From Desulfobacula sp. (GTDB taxonomy: Bacteria > Desulfobacterota > Desulfobacteria > Desulfobacterales > Desulfobacteraceae), in assembly GCF_030611305.1 (NCBI RefSeq), contig NZ_JAUWQB010000030.1, positions 1 to 39,382 of the forward strand: a stretch of 39,382 nucleotides of DNA, written 5' to 3'. The notes below the pieces were generated by a model. That model was given only the letters and a program-made list of their open reading frames with translations. It ran no database searches and had not been told where the DNA came from. Within the stretch, counting starts at the first letter, position 1. Each line of letters begins with the position of its first letter. Positions 2,962-35,415 of this stretch are shown piece by piece. The position numbers were made by a program, and so were the translations under genes.

Positions 2962-5730
2962 TTAAACTGTGCCAGGTTCAATCTTTATGGCACAGACTTT
3001 AAACTCAGGTATTTTTGCTATTGGGTCCAGTTTTGCATTTGTCAGCTCATTGGCTGCAGCTTTGGCAAAATGGAATGGAATAAAAACGGTTCCATCCACT
3101 GCTTTTGAGGATACTTTCAGTTTTGCACTGATTTTACCCCTGCGGGACGACACATCCACCATAGATCCCGTATCAAGGCCGATTTTTTTTGCATCGGTCG
3201 AAGATATTTCCACAAAACATTCAGGTGAGAGCATGTTAAGCCCATCTGTTTTCATGGTCATGGTTCCGGTGTGATAGTGGTATAATACCCTTCCTGTTGT
3301 CAGGATATAGGGATATTGTTCATCCGGCTCTTCAGCCGGCGGGGTATGGTCAATTGCATGGAACATGCCTTTGCCTCTGGTAAATTGAGTGGTATGAAGA
3401 ATGGGAGTTCCTTCATGGGCTTCATCGGGACAGGGCCAGTGGATGCCGATTTTATCGATTCTGTCCCAGGTAATCCCTTTATAGGAAGGCGTGACAGATG
3501 CGATTTCCTTGAAGATGTCCTGGCTGTTTTCATAGGACATCTCATATCCCATTTTTCGGGCAATTTCACAAAGGATTTCCCAGTCCTGCTTTGCTTGGCC
3601 GGGTGCGTCCACTGCTTTCCTGACCCGTTGAACCCGCCGTTCCGTATTACTGAATGTACCGTCTTTTTCAGCAAAACAGGCTGCCGGCAGAACTACATCA
3701 GCTATTGCTGTGGTTTCTGTCTGGAAAATATCCTGAACAACAAAAAAGTCCAGGTTGGCAAGAGCTTTTCGTACATGGTTAAGGTCCGGGTCGGAAACCA
3801 GGGGGTTCTCGCCAATAATAAAGAGTGATTTAAGCTCTCCTTCAAAGGCTTTTTGAATCATTTCCGTCACGGGCAATCCCGGGGTTGCTGACATGCCTGT
3901 TGTGTTCCATACCTTTTCATAATTTTTTCTGGCCTCATCATTGCTGACCAGTTGATATGCGGTAAAAACATTTGGAAGCCCACCCATATCACAGGCGCCC
4001 TGAACATTGTTCTGACCACGCAATGGGTTCACGCCACCACCTGGTTTTCCTAAGTGCCCGCAAAGCATGGAAAGATTGGCAAGGGATTTTACATTGTTCG
4101 TACCACAGGTATGCTGAGTAATTCCCATGCAGTATAAAATAGATGCTACAGAAGCTTTTGCAAACTGCCTTGCAACTTCAATAATGTCGTCTGCCTTGAT
4201 TCCTGTGATATTTTCCACATAGTCGGGTGTATATTTTTCAACTATTTCTTTGAGGGCTTCAAAATTCTCTGTTCGGTCTTCAACAAATTTTTTGTTATGA
4301 AGATTTTCTTTTATGATGACGTGCATCAGGCCGTTGATCCAGGCAATGTCCGTACCGGGAAACTGTCTGAGCCATTTATTGGCATGGTCGGTAAGACCAA
4401 CCCGTCGAGGGTCGATTACATAAAGTTTCTTGCCCTTTAAGACGGCCCGTTTAACAAAACTTGAGAGAACAGGATGATTTTCAGTTGTATTGGAGCCTGT
4501 TACCAGTATCAAGTCAGAAGTTTCAATATCTGCGATTGTGTTGGTCATTGCACCGCTTCCAAATGCTGCAGCCAGACCGGCTACGGTTGAGCTATGTCAC
4601 AGGCGGGCGCAATGGTCTATATTATTTGTTTTCAAAACGGCACGGGTAAATTTCTGGGCAATATAGTTTTCTTCATTGGTGATCCTGGCAGAGGTCAGAA
4701 AACCCTGACTGTCCGGACCGAATTCTTCTTTAATGGAGCCAAGTTTCCGGGCCACAAGATCCAGTGCCTCATCCCATGATGCTTCAACCTGTTTGCCGTC
4801 CTTTTTAATTAAAGGTTTGGTTAACCGTTTGGGAGAAGCAACAAATTCGTATCCAAATCTGCCTTTGACACAAAGACTTGCATTGTTTGGCGGAAGGTCA
4901 ACGTCAGCTCCATCAATCTTAACAATTTTATTGTTCTGGACAAAAAGATCAACCTGGCATCCGACTCCGCAGAAGGCACAAGTGGTTCTAACTTTTTTTG
5001 TATCTGTAAACCTGCCGTCTCTGAAAGCTTTATCCGGCACGAGAGCACCGACAGGGCAGACCTGGATGCATTCACCGCAAAAGACACAGTCAGAATCTTT
5101 TAAAACAGCATCGTTTTTTGCTATGATTTTAAGATCTTTTCCGCTGTAACCGAACTCAATGGCATTGTTTACCTGGATTTCCCGGCAGGCTTTTACACAT
5201 CTTCCGCAAAGGATACACCGTGAAAAATCTCTGATAATAAAAGGATTGGCACGTTCAGTTTCATATTTGCATTCATTTAACGGCATACCGCGTGTTATGA
5301 CCTGATACCGGTAAGCAAGGTCCTGGAGTTCACAATCACCCCAAACCGGGCAAAGATCCTCTTTGCCGTCACTTTTTAGGACAGAAAGTTGAAATGATGT
5401 CCAGTCATTTGTATCAAAATCTCTTATAGCACAATTATGATTACCTGAAGCCAGAAGTTTGCTGATATTCTTCTGACGTGCTTTTATAACCTTTGAAGAT
5501 TCCGTAAAAATGATCATATCTTGTTTGGCTTTTGTTGCACAAGATTCAACCAGATCGGATTCACCCTTTATTTCAACCAGGCATATCTTGCATGTCGTGG
5601 TTGGAATCGTGTTTTTTAAATGGCACAGAGTGGGAATATCAATTTTATTTCGTTGCGCAACTTCAAGAATTGTCTCACCAGGTTCAAAGGTCAACTCATT
5701 TTCGTTTATTGCTATAATATTACGTTCCAT
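2962..5730 (-). CDS. fdhA: selenocysteine-containing formate dehydrogenase, NuoG-like (TGA read as Sec378)
   Basis: The coding region is interrupted by one in-frame TGA (4597-4599), which I read as selenocysteine; the product is then 922 residues. The surrounding residues DHCARL-U-HSSTVAG match the active site of Sec formate dehydrogenases. Domains in order are a 2Fe-2S ferredoxin (Cys36, 47, 50, 64), a NuoG-type His/Cys cluster (His98, Cys100, Cys127, Cys133), two 4Fe-4S sites (Cys172/175/178/182 and Cys215/218/221/225), and the molybdopterin oxidoreductase domain with its own 4Fe-4S site (Cys251/254/258/287) and Sec378. The enzyme interconverts formate and CO2 using Mo or W bis-MGD. This architecture resembles cytoplasmic NAD(P)- or ferredoxin-linked enzymes, and no Tat signal is visible. 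No other formate dehydrogenase subunit lies beside it. The gene is divergent from the RnfB/GltD fusion, a possible electron partner (inference). Confidence 0.93.
4568..4599 (-). promoter_or_regulatory. bacterial SECIS element of fdhA, with the Sec TGA
   Basis: The Sec codon TGA is at 4597-4599 on the minus strand. After 18 bases comes a perfect six-base stem, GTAGCC/GGCTGC (4579-4584 with 4568-4573, one G-U pair), closing a GGUCU loop (4574-4578). The loop sequence and the 18-base distance match the E. coli fdhF SECIS as I remember it. SelB would bind this apical loop to deliver Sec-tRNA. Confidence 0.92.
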
Positions 5731-5943: not shown

Positions 5944-8010
5944 ATGTTTCAATCTATTTTAATGATGGGCGGACTTGGTGTTGCAATCGGTACTGTATTA
6001 GTGATTGCTTCAAAAACTTTTTATGTATACGAAGATCCAAAGGTTGTCGCCATTGACGATGTTCTGCCGGGAGCCAATTGCGGCGGGTGCGGGTTTCCAG
6101 GGTGTAATGCCAATGCAGAAGCCATTGTAAAGGGAGTTCAAGATGTGAATTCCTGTGTGGCTGCCGGGGATGATGTGGCCATGGCTATTGCAGGGATTAT
6201 GGGTGTATCTGTTTCGGATAAGGAACCTGAATTTGCAGGACCCGGATGCTACTATGGCAAAGATGATGCAGATATGGAATATAAATATCTTGGTGTGACC
6301 GATTGCAGGGCAGCCGCGTTGTTGTTCGGAGGAATGAAGGTCTGCAGGATCGGGTGCCTGGGACTTGGGACCTGTGTAAAAGCGTGTATGTTTGGTGCTT
6401 TGTCCATAGGCAGTGATGGTTTACCTAAGGTTGATCAGAAAAAATGTACGGGGTGCGGAGCCTGTGAAAGGGTCTGCCCCAAAAATATTATCCGGCTCAC
6501 ATCCGTGACCCGGAGGATTATGAGAGAATATACAAAGGAAGAGTGTATTACCCCATGTCAGAGGGCCTGTCCTACGGGTATAGATATTAAAGAATATATC
6601 CGGCTGATCAAAGAAGGGGATTATGAGGGATCTGTCAAAGTAATAAAGGAAAGAAATCCTTTCCCAACTGTTATTTCAAGGATTTGCCCGGCTCCATGTG
6701 AGTTTAAATGCAGAAGACTTATGCAAGACGAATCGGTTGCCATAAATCATTTAAAACGGTTTGTCTGTGATTATGAAATGAATCAGAACAAGCGGGTAAT
6801 GCCTTATAAAGCACCGGCAACAGGGAAAAAAGTTGCGGTCATTGGCGGTGGTGTTGAAGGATTGTCATCCGCATTTTTCACCGCAAGACTCGGGCATGAC
6901 CCAACGATTTTTGAAGCGACTGATTCTTTGGGCGGTATTCTTCGTAAGGCCATTGACAGGGAAAGATTGTCCATGGATGTGCTTGACTGGGATATTGAGG
7001 GTGTGAAAGAAATGGGTGTAAGTATCCACACAAATGCCAAGGCTGGTATGGATTTTACCATTGAAGGGCTTTTAAAAGATAATTTTGATGCCGTTTTTAC
7101 CGCTACCGGCGGTTGGGATTCCAGGCTTGCAAGGGGAGATATTGATCGGGCGGCAACGGTTTTCCCCGGGGCATATCTTTTGATCGATCTTTTAAGAAGT
7201 AAATCAGATAAGAATATCAGTGTACCATCAGGAAAAAACGTCGTGATTGCAGGCGGTGGCATCAGCGTACCGGATGCCGTTGATATTTTAAAAGAAAACG
7301 GATCAAAGAAAATAACCGTTATTTCAAGAAAATACCCGGATGATTCTTCTTTTGACTCGGAAGCCATTGATAAGTTGTCCAATGCCGGCGCAACCATTAT
7401 TTATAATGCCGGGGTCACCAAAGTAACCGGTGAAGACGGACAGTTAAAAGCAATTGAATGTGTAGAACTTGATACAGGCGTGAAACATGTTATTGATACA
7501 GATATGCTGATCATAGGTTCAGGAAGATTTCCGGAGCTTGTGTTTATGCCTGTAAGAAATGAGGAACAGGAACAGGAAGAGGAAGAGGAAGAGGAGGATA
7601 CAGCAAATAACGGGCCGTTAGTTTGGGAAGGTGTTGAACTGCAGAAAAAACCGGATGCAAACAGAGAACTGGGGTTGCTTTCAAATCAAGATGTCATCAG
7701 TGAGTATTCTTCTGCTGTGGCAGCTATCAATGGCGGTAGAAAAGCTGCTGCTGCAATTCATAACCTGATGTATGGAATTGAGTTCCAGGAGTCTTCCAAA
7801 TTTATAACGGAACAATCCGTGCTTCAGGATGTTGCATTGTTGAACAATGTTGATATTGTTCCAAAAAACATTATGGAATTGAGCAAAATCGAAAAAGGGT
7901 CTACAGATAAATTTTCAACGGGCTTTTCAATAGAGGAAGCACAGGCTGAAGCGAACAGGTGCTTAAGATGCGGTCTTGTCTGTTATGAAAAATCCAAGGC
8001 AGCCGGATAA
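5944..8010 (+). CDS. rnfB: RnfB-like ferredoxin fused to GltD-type FAD/NAD(P) oxidoreductase
   Basis: A 688-residue fusion. Residues 1-24 form a membrane anchor like that of RnfB. An RnfB Fe-S domain follows with Cys46, 49, 54 and 71 (CGGCGFPGC), then two ferredoxin sites (Cys134/138/144/148 and Cys168/171/174/178). From about residue 200 the protein resembles the small subunit of glutamate synthase. It has an N-terminal Fe-S domain (Cys201/205/209 and Cys248/252/256), an FAD Rossmann motif GGGVEG near 301, and a second nucleotide-binding motif GGGISVPDA near 432. The tail ends in RCLRCGLVC. Rnf complexes couple ferredoxin:NAD oxidoreduction to ion pumping, and RnfB is the likely ferredoxin entry point. 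No rnfC, D, G, E or A lies in this window, so it may act alone or with a distant complex. The usual FAGGD motif is altered to LLSNQD, and an acidic repeat tract interrupts the flavin domain. Confidence 0.85.
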   Translation: MFQSILMMGGLGVAIGTVLVIASKTFYVYEDPKVVAIDDVLPGANCGGCGFPGCNANAEAIVKGVQDVNSCVAAGDDVAMAIAGIMGVSVSDKEPEFAGPGCYYGKDDADMEYKYLGVTDCRAAALLFGGMKVCRIGCLGLGTCVKACMFGALSIGSDGLPKVDQKKCTGCGACERVCPKNIIRLTSVTRRIMREYTKEECITPCQRACPTGIDIKEYIRLIKEGDYEGSVKVIKERNPFPTVISRICPAPCEFKCRRLMQDESVAINHLKRFVCDYEMNQNKRVMPYKAPATGKKVAVIGGGVEGLSSAFFTARLGHDPTIFEATDSLGGILRKAIDRERLSMDVLDWDIEGVKEMGVSIHTNAKAGMDFTIEGLLKDNFDAVFTATGGWDSRLARGDIDRAATVFPGAYLLIDLLRSKSDKNISVPSGKNVVIAGGGISVPDAVDILKENGSKKITVISRKYPDDSSFDSEAIDKLSNAGATIIYNAGVTKVTGEDGQLKAIECVELDTGVKHVIDTDMLIIGSGRFPELVFMPVRNEEQEQEEEEEEEDTANNGPLVWEGVELQKKPDANRELGLLSNQDVISEYSSAVAAINGGRKAAAAIHNLMYGIEFQESSKFITEQSVLQDVALLNNVDIVPKNIMELSKIEKGSTDKFSTGFSIEEAQAEANRCLRCGLVCYEKSKAAG
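7561..7599 (+). repeat. in-frame hexanucleotide repeat encoding a poly-Glu tract
   Basis: Repeats of GAACAG (twice) and GAAGAG (three times), flanked by related GAG codons, encode residues 540-552 (NEEQEQEEEEEEED context) inside the flavoprotein domain of the RnfB fusion. The six-base unit keeps the frame, so copy-number change would lengthen or shorten an acidic loop without breaking the protein. Confidence 0.75.
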
Positions 8011-33975: not shown

Positions 33976-34023
33976 ACTAGAATGAAAGTACTTTAATTTT
34001 AAATAGATAGGGGGAATGATAGC

Positions 34024-35343
34024 ATGGGAGATATTGCTATTAAAATCGGAAACGCAAGAAAGAGCGTTTTTAAAGATAAGGTAATGAAGCTTCTGCCTGA
34101 TGGCGGGAATTTGAATGCATGCCTGACATGCGGTGCATGTGCATCAGGTTGCCCTGCAACCGGTCTTGAAGGAATGGATCCAAGAAAGTTCCTGAGAATG
34201 GCAGCACTTGGAATGGATGAAGAAATACTGAGCTCAAATTGGGTATGGATGTGTACCATGTGTATGCGATGTATTTATGTCTGTCCCATGGAAATTAATA
34301 TTCCTCAGCTTGTATTCAATGCAAGAGCACAATGGCCAAGAGAAGAAAGACCCAAAGGTATCAGAGGCTCCTGTGACATGGCACTAAAAAACGACACCTG
34401 CTCAGCCATGGGTGCCAATGAAGAAGATTTTCAATTTGTTGTGGAAGATGTTCTTGAAGAGTACCAGGAATCGCAGCCTGAGTTTGCCCAGATGAAAGCA
34501 GATGTAAACAGGGAAGGCGCTTATTACTTTTTAAATCAGAACTCAAGAGAACCGGTAACAGAACCCGATGAAATGGTCCCGTTGTGGAAAATTCTGAACC
34601 TTGCAGGCGCAGACTGGACCTATGGTACAAAAGGCTGGGCTGCTGAAAATTATTGCATGTTTCTGGCTGAAAATGAATCCTGGGAAAAAATTATTCGGAC
34701 AAAGGTCAAAGCAGTGGAGGATCTGGGCTGTAAAGTCTGGCTCAACACCGAGTGAGGGCACGAACTTTTTGCAGTCCTGGCAGGACTGAAAAAATTTAAT
34801 ATCCCTTACAACTTTGAAATTAAAAGTATTATTCAACTCTATGCAGAGTGGATCAGAGAAGGTAAACTTAAACCATCTTCAGACTGGAATAAAGATAGAA
34901 AAATCAAGTTCACACTTCAGGATCCTTGTCAGCTGGTGAGGAAAACACTTGGTGATCCGGTTGCAGAAGATATGAGATACGTTGTCAAGAAAGTTGTTGG
35001 TGAAGAAAATTTTATTGACATGACACCCAATAAATCCAACAATTTTTGCTGTGGCGGCGGAGGTGGATTCCTCCAGTCCGGTTTCCAGGAACAAAGACGG
35101 GCGTATGGGCAGACCAAGGCCAACCAGATCCTTGCAACAAAAGCTGCCTATTGCATCACGCCATGCCATAATTGTCATGCCCAGGTGCATGATATGGCCG
35201 ATGTCAATGACCATGCATGGGAAACCGTTCATCTCTGGACACTCTTAAACCTTTCCCTGGGTATATTGGGCCCCAATGAAAGGGAATATCTTGGTGAAGA
35301 TTTAAAAGAAGTGGATGTGTTTCATCCGGAATCTGCCATGTAA
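34024..35343 (+). CDS. Sec-containing Fe-S oxidoreductase, HdrD/GlcF-like (TGA read as Sec244)
   Basis: Read through one in-frame TGA at 34753-34755, the product is 439 residues. Two ferredoxin motifs come first (Cys33/36/39/43 and Cys77/80/83/87). A region with an incomplete first CCG-type half follows, ending in LNTE-U-GHE with the proposed Sec244. The C-terminal CCG domain is complete: Cys302, Cys342-Cys343 and Cys381-x2-Cys384, close to the CX31-39CCX35-36CXXC pattern. In heterodisulfide reductases, such domains hold the noncubane cluster that breaks disulfides. Sec244 falls where GlcF and HdrD relatives have Cys (compare SGCGA). Without readthrough, the first part would lose the whole catalytic domain. 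The downstream sequence stays in frame and fully conserved-looking, arguing against a nonsense mutation. I infer a cytoplasmic thiol/disulfide or electron-transfer role; partner and substrate are unknown. A terminator follows 32 bases after the stop, so it is monocistronic. Confidence 0.85.
34753..34794 (+). promoter_or_regulatory. probable SECIS element with its Sec TGA
   Basis: The TGA is at 34753-34755. After 22 bases a perfect six-base stem, CAGUCC/GGACUG (34772-34777 with 34783-34788), closes a UGGCA loop; a U-A pair may reduce the loop to GGC. A U5/A6 lower stem with one bulged G extends it. The position and guanines at the loop are typical of bacterial SECIS elements, though the loop differs from the GGUCU of fdhA. 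Confidence 0.75.
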
Positions 35344-35374
35344 TTTATATATTTTAAATGTTAAGATCAAACCG

Positions 35375-35415
35375 GCCTTGTACGGCAAGTAATTTGCTGT
35401 ACAAGGCTTTTTTTT
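35375..35415 (+). terminator. intrinsic terminator after the Sec Fe-S oxidoreductase gene
   Basis: GCCTTGTACGGCAA pairs with TTGCTGTACAAGGC (one G-T wobble) around a five-base loop, followed by eight T residues (35408-35415). It separates this gene from the parAB operon. Confidence 0.93.

Follow-up and report, generated by a model that had tools for sequence, protein, structure and literature searches.

The window analyzed in our study, a stretch of 39,382 nucleotides from a Desulfobacula sp. contig, carries on its forward strand a reading frame at 34024-35343 that is interrupted by an in-frame TGA. The frame comprises 243 sense codons, the TGA as codon 244 (34753-34755, + strand) and 195 further codons up to a TAA, in agreement with the original prediction that it resumes in frame for 195 codons after the TGA. 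With this codon read as selenocysteine (Sec) in the motif TEUGHE, a reading that is based on comparison with relatives, the gene encodes an HdrD-like protein of 439 residues with Sec at position 244. From the frame, the Pfam domains and the alignment it is a soluble HdrC-HdrB fusion. An RBS-like GGGGGA precedes the gene at 34010-34015. Directly 3' of the gene an intrinsic-terminator-like hairpin was found at 35374-35408 (+ strand), which consists of a 16-pair stem followed by TTTTTTT; three terminator-like sites were found in the region compared with 1.4 expected. As this hairpin and its T-run follow right after the gene, the Sec hdrD gene is probably transcribed alone. It is located between a divergent hrpA and a downstream parA, and no hdrA, mvhD or met gene is found next to it. 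Ordinary gene calling divides genes of this kind into two at their TGA, which happened here as well.

The window also codes for a second selenoprotein at 2965-5730 (- strand), a formate dehydrogenase alpha subunit that is extended at its N-terminus by a 2Fe-2S/ferredoxin part. Its Sec378 lies in the motif HCARL-U-H, and the listing of open reading frames breaks the gene into two frames. Divergent from it, at 5944-8010 (+ strand), lies a gene for a 688-residue fusion of an RnfB-like Fe-S part with a glutamate-synthase-small-subunit-like NAD(P)/FAD part, both names being read from Pfam domains.

Domain layout and cluster site

The Pfam domains of the Sec protein flank the TGA. Upstream of it, a ferredoxin-like domain (residues 30-91; 34111-34296, + strand; Fer4_8/Fer4_17) holds two CxxCxxCxxxC motifs at 33/36/39/43 and 77/80/83/87 and is expected to bind two cubane [4Fe-4S] clusters. 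A reduced first CCG half at residues 198-247 (34615-34764, + strand), delimited by profile alignment with EtfD (9ojn), retains U244-G245-H246. Beyond the TGA follows a complete second CCG domain, PF02754, at residues 297-388 (34912-35187, + strand), which was recognized by Pfam and aligned with EtfD and which had been expected there from the first inspection of the sequence. This domain carries the five-Cys motif of a noncubane cluster, namely C302, C342, C343, C381 and C384. We aligned 66 sequences, i.e. the window protein and 65 of the 131 other distinct members after an 88% identity filter. Cysteines 33, 36, 39, 43, 77, 80, 83, 87, 302, 342, 343, 381 and 384 were invariant in this alignment, position 244 was invariant as well and H246 was conserved in at least 90%. 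Two complete five-Cys CCG motifs of the HdrD/HdrB type were not found among the invariant columns, in which the second motif alone is complete. The proposed architecture of two ferredoxins, an incomplete first CCG half and a complete second one was thus upheld by Pfam and by the invariant cysteines. Judged by these motifs, the protein joins a ferredoxin domain of the HdrC type to a half of the HdrB type that has one complete CCG motif.

The label HdrD/GlcF-like, which had been given to the protein beforehand, holds at the level of domains but not at that of NCBIfam equivalogs, since none of the curated cut-offs was reached among the 25 best matches listed. HmcF scored 149.7 bits (cut-off 750), TmcB 141.9 bits (735) and DsrK 103.7 bits (400), and the models for GlpC and for the anaerobic glycerol-3-phosphate dehydrogenase subunit C gave 40.9 and 33.2 bits with cut-offs of 278 and 279.9. 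Due to these missed cut-offs we rejected an equivalog identity as DsrK/TmcB/HmcF or as GlpC.

The profile of the family matched EtfD of Mycobacterium smegmatis (9ojn) with an E-value of 8.7e-23. In the resulting alignment C302, C342, C343, C381 and C384 correspond to EtfD Cys637, Cys672, Cys673, Cys709 and Cys712, H246 corresponds to His583 and U244 to Cys581. The five cysteines of EtfD have been described as ligands of its noncubane cluster with His583 as an extra ligand, and Cys581 as one of the ligands by which its first CCG domain binds a linear [3Fe-4S] cluster (PMC13083937). All noncubane ligands of the EtfD type in the second domain, including the equivalent of His583, are therefore aligned in the Sec protein. 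An AlphaFold2 model of the protein, which contains no cofactors, reached a pLDDT of 90.6. Its best match among PDB folds was EtfD (TM 0.66 over the query, 17% identity), followed mainly by HdrB chains. From the alignment and the model we infer a single noncubane cluster, for which His246 is a likely ligand and whose site also includes Sec244.

A variant that is compatible with this placement assumes that Sec244 is not a reactive selenolate but an iron ligand in a leftover cluster of the first CCG domain. The alignment of U244 with the linear-cluster ligand Cys581 would fit such a role. However, position 244, occupied by Sec, is the only ligand position of the linear cluster that is kept: Glu247 takes the place of Cys584, and no conserved Cys was found at Cys503 or Cys538. 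We regard this variant as a rather doubtful option.

Decoding of TGA244 and the SECIS hairpin

The TGA at codon 244 almost certainly encodes selenocysteine, as judged by comparison of relatives. TGA was present at the aligned codon in 80/80 fetched relatives, which were the best 80 of 492 matching stretches and shared 75-95% identity. Cultured strains among them are Desulfospira joergensenii DSM 10085 (L048) and Desulfocicer vacuolatum DSM 3385 (L055), both with TGA in the gene. For a broader sample we used 138 frames, from which L009 as a copy of the window had been left out; removal of six duplicates gave 132 distinct members. Codon 244 was TGA in 117 of these, TGC in 13 and TGT in two, so that alignment with the Cys homologues revealed TGA or a Cys codon in 132/132 and no other codon. 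The UGH motif was found in 120/120 Sec frames. In the original prediction the TGA had been placed in LNTE-U-GHE at a site where relatives have Cys; the motif was recovered, but Cys is limited to a minority of members (15/132) and to paralogues. Three close paralogues are encoded in the same genome, two with TGA (C110, 71% identity; C154, 57%) and one with TGC (C129, 60%).

Moreover, in 12 pairs chosen for ungapped full length dN/dS stayed at or below 0.06 on either side of the TGA for all halves with a finite dS; three pairs had one half with saturated dS, and in several others dS exceeded 1. By this measure, purifying selection acts both upstream and downstream of TGA244. The genome encodes selA, selB, selD and tRNA-Sec, each scoring above its cut-off, and its selD carries a TGA itself. 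Sequence features that characterize bacterial selenoproteins were hence found together, i.e. a conserved in-frame TGA at a Cys site, purifying selection, a SECIS element with a G in the loop and the decoding machinery. The early reading of Sec at a conserved Cys site gained support from the Cys alignment, the Sec machinery and the covarying SECIS. TGA ordinarily is a stop and a product of 243 residues would retain the ferredoxin domain, but a true stop that yields a truncated protein, a pseudogene or a sequencing error is highly improbable and was rejected in view of the TGA conservation in all 80 fetched relatives, the low dN/dS past the TGA, the SECIS covariation and the complete Sec machinery.

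The putative SECIS hairpin, which is supported by pairing and covariation, starts 16 nt past the UGA at 34772-34788 (+ strand). Its 6-bp stem CAGTCC/GGACTG (34772-34777 paired with 34783-34788) encloses the loop UGGCA (TGGCA in the DNA), which confirms the perfect six-base stem with a G-bearing loop noted earlier. Among 108 Sec members with at least 50% identity 98.1% of the pair cells were formed, compared with 6.6-56.5% in control registers in which the partner strand was shifted by 1-4 positions. All six pairs were formed in 96 of these members and five of six in the other 12, and adjacent GG in the loop segment occurred in 108/108. The nine Cys members formed one to five pairs (two of them five), and the mean MFE at this position was -11.4 kcal/mol in the Sec members versus -4.1 in the nine Cys members. 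According to these comparisons the hairpin is mostly lost in Cys members. The Cys members nested in Sec clades mostly retain a partial stem, which is expected after a replacement of Sec by Cys. One Cys member, L149, retains 3/6 stem pairs at the SECIS position.

In a subset of 28 sequences that had been chosen for diversity from the 108 Sec members, 97.0% of the cells were paired and 3/6 pairs showed two-sided changes. The covariation score and the count of two-sided cells were matched by 0/500 shuffles, while 14/500 reached the number of two-sided pairs and 25/500 that of the pair types; shuffles of this kind may be outperformed by shared ancestry without any selection for pairing. The hairpin of the window taken by itself is only modestly special. 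Folds as good were obtained with 14/300 synonymous-codon shuffles, and dinucleotide shuffles equalled the window fold in 14/200 cases (segment from the TGA) or in 1/200, depending on the segment. Across 85 TGA members the fold z averaged -2.3 and was below -2 in 48/85; the lowest z of 411 in-gene windows started at codon 248 and the second-lowest at codon 9. The strong evidence for the SECIS is thus comparative and does not come from the fold of the window sequence alone. Rfam returned 0 gathering-level matches in the window and only chance-level ones at a relaxed E-value, and likewise none for the Sec site of FdhA, so that the lack of a match to the SECIS carries no information. In nine distant Sec members (<50% identity) a hairpin was located at about the same place, in several of them with a bulge. 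Another stem register, often with a bulged base, was observed in the Sec members L156, L157 and L160-L166 (34-43% identity).

The Sec/Cys label requires at least nine changes on the tree of the 66 proteins and at least seven if well supported branches are considered. When the tree is rooted on distant Cys paralogues, one gain and eight losses are one shortest account; if losses of Sec are forbidden, 14 gains are needed. The root itself is unsure because the three outgroup rows have long branches. In this phylogeny the Cys members are nested among the Sec members, and the several apparent natural Sec-to-Cys replacements would allow a comparison of selenium and sulfur at a noncubane-cluster site.

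Gene neighbourhoods and candidate partners

Gene neighbourhoods of relatives were scored by tblastn with marker proteins, and profiles served to name representatives (MetV C-terminal domain PF12225, MetF PF02219, HdrA, MvhD PF02662). In the 30 loci with at least 84% identity, the window included, hrpA lay opposite in 25 and parA was present in 26. No hdrA, mvhD, metF or metV adjoined the gene in these loci (0/30; 20/30 with full flanks). A different picture was obtained at 60-84% identity, where 78 distinct loci remained after removal of six duplicates from 84, which lowered the count of loci with hdrA/mvhD from 39 to 37. Within 6 kb and on the same strand hdrA/mvhD was found in 37 of the 78, MetF in 25 and MetV in 24, many flanks being short. 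The 37 loci with full flanks, among which one genome may appear twice, gave 19 for hdrA/mvhD and 16 each for MetF and MetV. At 45-60% identity hdrA/mvhD neighbours were present in 6/7 loci. In L099 (Sec) and L149 (Cys) the genes hdrA, the HdrD-like gene, frhB, vhuG and vhuA are consecutive, the names in L099 being the family names of the L149 members in the same clusters. Besides, two Sec hdrD subtypes stand in tandem in Desulfamplus (L053, L054), both with TGA and SECIS stem.

MetV was found in 301/395 genomes and in 46/50 genomes that bear the clade (Fisher p = 0.004, kinship uncorrected; the 50 were counted by eye from a match list with E up to 4e-143). Since MetV occurs in 301/395 genomes anyway, this co-occurrence says little. 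In four of the 50 clade-bearing genomes (G186, G213, G277, G391) a MetV match was absent. MetVF therefore cannot be the partner everywhere.

The genome of the window harbours many parallel Hdr/Met modules. It contains six MetV (PF12225) genes, on C120, C156, C150, C9, C154 and C32, and eleven MvhD (PF02662) domains, of which four contain an in-frame TGA. Clusters of hdrA-mvhD-metV-metF are located on C150, C154 and C156, and further Met modules on C120 (metF, metV, mvhD) and C32 (hdrA, metV, metF and an HdrC-like match). The cluster on C154 has its own Sec HdrD copy. For those on C150 and C156 neither an HdrD-like nor an HdrB match was found in the respective contigs. C156 contains one weak HdrC-like match (21.2 bits) more than 10 kb from the cluster, and a pair of HdrB and HdrC, for both of which the genome was checked, is absent from C150. 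Conversely, the hdrD gene of the window (C139) and a second one on C110 are orphans. All four genes of the C150 cluster best matched L081, L092 or L100, loci that carry an hdrD of the window subtype (UGHELFA/UGHEFFA). HdrA, MvhD and MetV of C156 best matched L096, where the hdrD belongs to the C110 subtype (UGHVTFS); MetF of C156, contrary to a pairing with C110, best matched L127 with an hdrD of the window subtype. Going by these best-match subtypes, the orphan hdrD genes (C139, C110) may have their counterparts in the two clusters that lack hdrD (C150, C156), a pairing that rests on loci selected by similarity to the window protein. Alternatively, the separate HdrB and HdrC pairs on C65, C40 and C108, which all score below the curated cut-offs, might supply the partners of these two clusters. 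In Thermacetogenium phaeum hdrBC is described apart from the metFV-hdrA cluster, which is a precedent for split partners (PMC6895022).

Proposed function and comparison with known systems

We favour, as a fairly probable reading, that one Sec protein of 439 residues forms the HdrBC-like arm of an HdrA-MvhD complex with Sec placed beside the noncubane cluster. The partner of the Sec HdrD-like protein we infer from the neighbourhoods of its relatives, and the HdrA-MvhD role would probably serve the methyl branch of the Wood-Ljungdahl pathway. In the proposed mechanism SelB and tRNA-Sec would insert Sec at UGA244, aided by the predicted downstream SECIS. The two cubane clusters of the N-terminal ferredoxin domain would take up electrons and hand them on to a noncubane [4Fe-4S] cluster that motif and alignment place on C302, C342, C343, C381 and C384. 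The first CCG domain would lack a cluster site of its own and keep only U244-x-H246, in which H246 probably ligates the noncubane cluster like His583 of EtfD. Sec244, two residues away on the same loop, would lie at the redox site and could act there either through a reactive selenolate or as a ligand. The protein would replace HdrBC in flavin complexes of HdrA-MvhD. In many relatives its gene lies in hdrA-mvhD-metV-metF clusters, which would act in the Wood-Ljungdahl pathway at the methylene-/methyl-THF step. In the lineage of the window the gene is split from such partners and may serve the C150 cluster in trans, which is the weakest step of the proposal.

A narrower version assumes a flavin-bifurcating methylene-THF reductase complex with Sec at or on the noncubane cluster of its HdrBC-like arm, and further that C139 and C110 serve C150 and C156; it is possible though unlikely as a whole. 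If it is true, a disulfide-cleaving cluster site would have been rebuilt around selenium in sulfate reducers, with the selenolate occupying the EtfD cluster-Cys position of the first CCG domain next to the His ligand.

Alternatively, the same selenoprotein might act like DsrK, TmcB or HmcF as the cytoplasmic subunit of a membrane complex and reduce, for instance, the disulfide of DsrC. These three models gave the best NCBIfam matches, and the ECGH motif also occurs in CCG proteins of the genome that are more distantly related (L013-L015). However, their scores were far under the cut-offs, the gene stands alone between hrpA and parA with its own terminator-like hairpin, and among the more distant relatives roughly every second gene adjoins hdrA/mvhD. 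We consider such a membrane-complex role improbable. A stand-alone Sec disulfide or peroxide reductase outside any Hdr complex appears slightly less probable still. Many Sec proteins are thiol-type reductases, and the 30 loci with at least 84% identity are devoid of hdrA/mvhD/met neighbours, which both would suit this explanation. On the other hand, all 66 sequences preserve both ferredoxin-cluster motifs as well as the noncubane motif without change, which fits electron transfer within a complex, and homologues adjoin hdrA/mvhD in almost half of the 78 loci at 60-84% identity.

The tie to HdrA-MvhD, often together with MetVF, and the position at a noncubane cluster turn a predicted family into testable biochemistry. 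The proposed role of the Sec protein as HdrBC-like arm bears on the electron flow at the methyl-THF step in sulfate reducers that use the Wood-Ljungdahl pathway, and on why selenium was kept there.

A selenoprotein predicted as 'Fe-S oxidoreductase (GlpC)' or 'Fe-S oxidoreductase-like protein' with a UGH motif has already been described (PMC13188914, PMC1794560). It was listed as early as 2006 (PMC1794560) and is reported from Deltaproteobacteria in an operon with hdrA and frhD/frhG/frhA (PMC1794560, PMC13188914). The family named in the original prediction hence exists and shares the motif, whereas the novelty hinted at there does not hold, as the family had been predicted before. A review of 2026 describes the functions of such predicted families as largely uncharacterized (PMC13188914). 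The window gene adds a member to the predicted UGH Fe-S oxidoreductase family, an assignment based on its motif, its type of domains and the order of genes in its relatives. It shares UGH (TEUGHE in the window), and the gene order of L099 and L149 resembles the operon reported in 2006, but the window gene itself stands outside any hdrA/frh operon. The 2006 table counts two Cys-to-Sec and no Sec-to-Cys events among five sequences (PMC1794560), in contrast to the one gain and eight losses on our tree. In the open-licence PMC papers covered by our search we found no link of this selenoprotein to methylene-THF reductase; the placement at the cluster site and the link to HdrA-MvhD/MetVF were likewise not encountered in these papers and are added here.

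Among structurally known proteins EtfD of M. smegmatis is the best fold match and has all noncubane ligands and His583 aligned; it differs by its membrane domain, by the linear [3Fe-4S] cluster and by Cys581 at the position of Sec (PMC13083937). Methanogen HdrABC (5odc, 7bkb, 8rvu) shows the same order of HdrC and HdrB domains, with an HdrC match at E 1e-12 and the HdrB fold. Unlike methanogen HdrB and HdrC, the window protein is one fused chain with one complete CCG motif instead of two, and contains Sec. HdrD4 of the sulfate reducer Desulfobacterium autotrophicum HRM2 is similar by its description as a soluble HdrC-HdrB type with Sec (PMC2702500). In Sporomusa ovata pull-downs HdrB, HdrA and MvhD were reported to interact with MetF, and the Hdr/MvhD proteins were reported not to copurify with MetVF as a stable complex (PMC9430772). 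Similar to the acetogen MetVF-HdrCBA-MvhD system, many relatives of the window gene adjoin hdrA, mvhD, metV and metF at the place where acetogens have hdrBC (PMC9430772). Here, however, a Sec fusion of the HdrD type would replace HdrB and HdrC, and in the lineage of the window it is encoded apart from the cluster.
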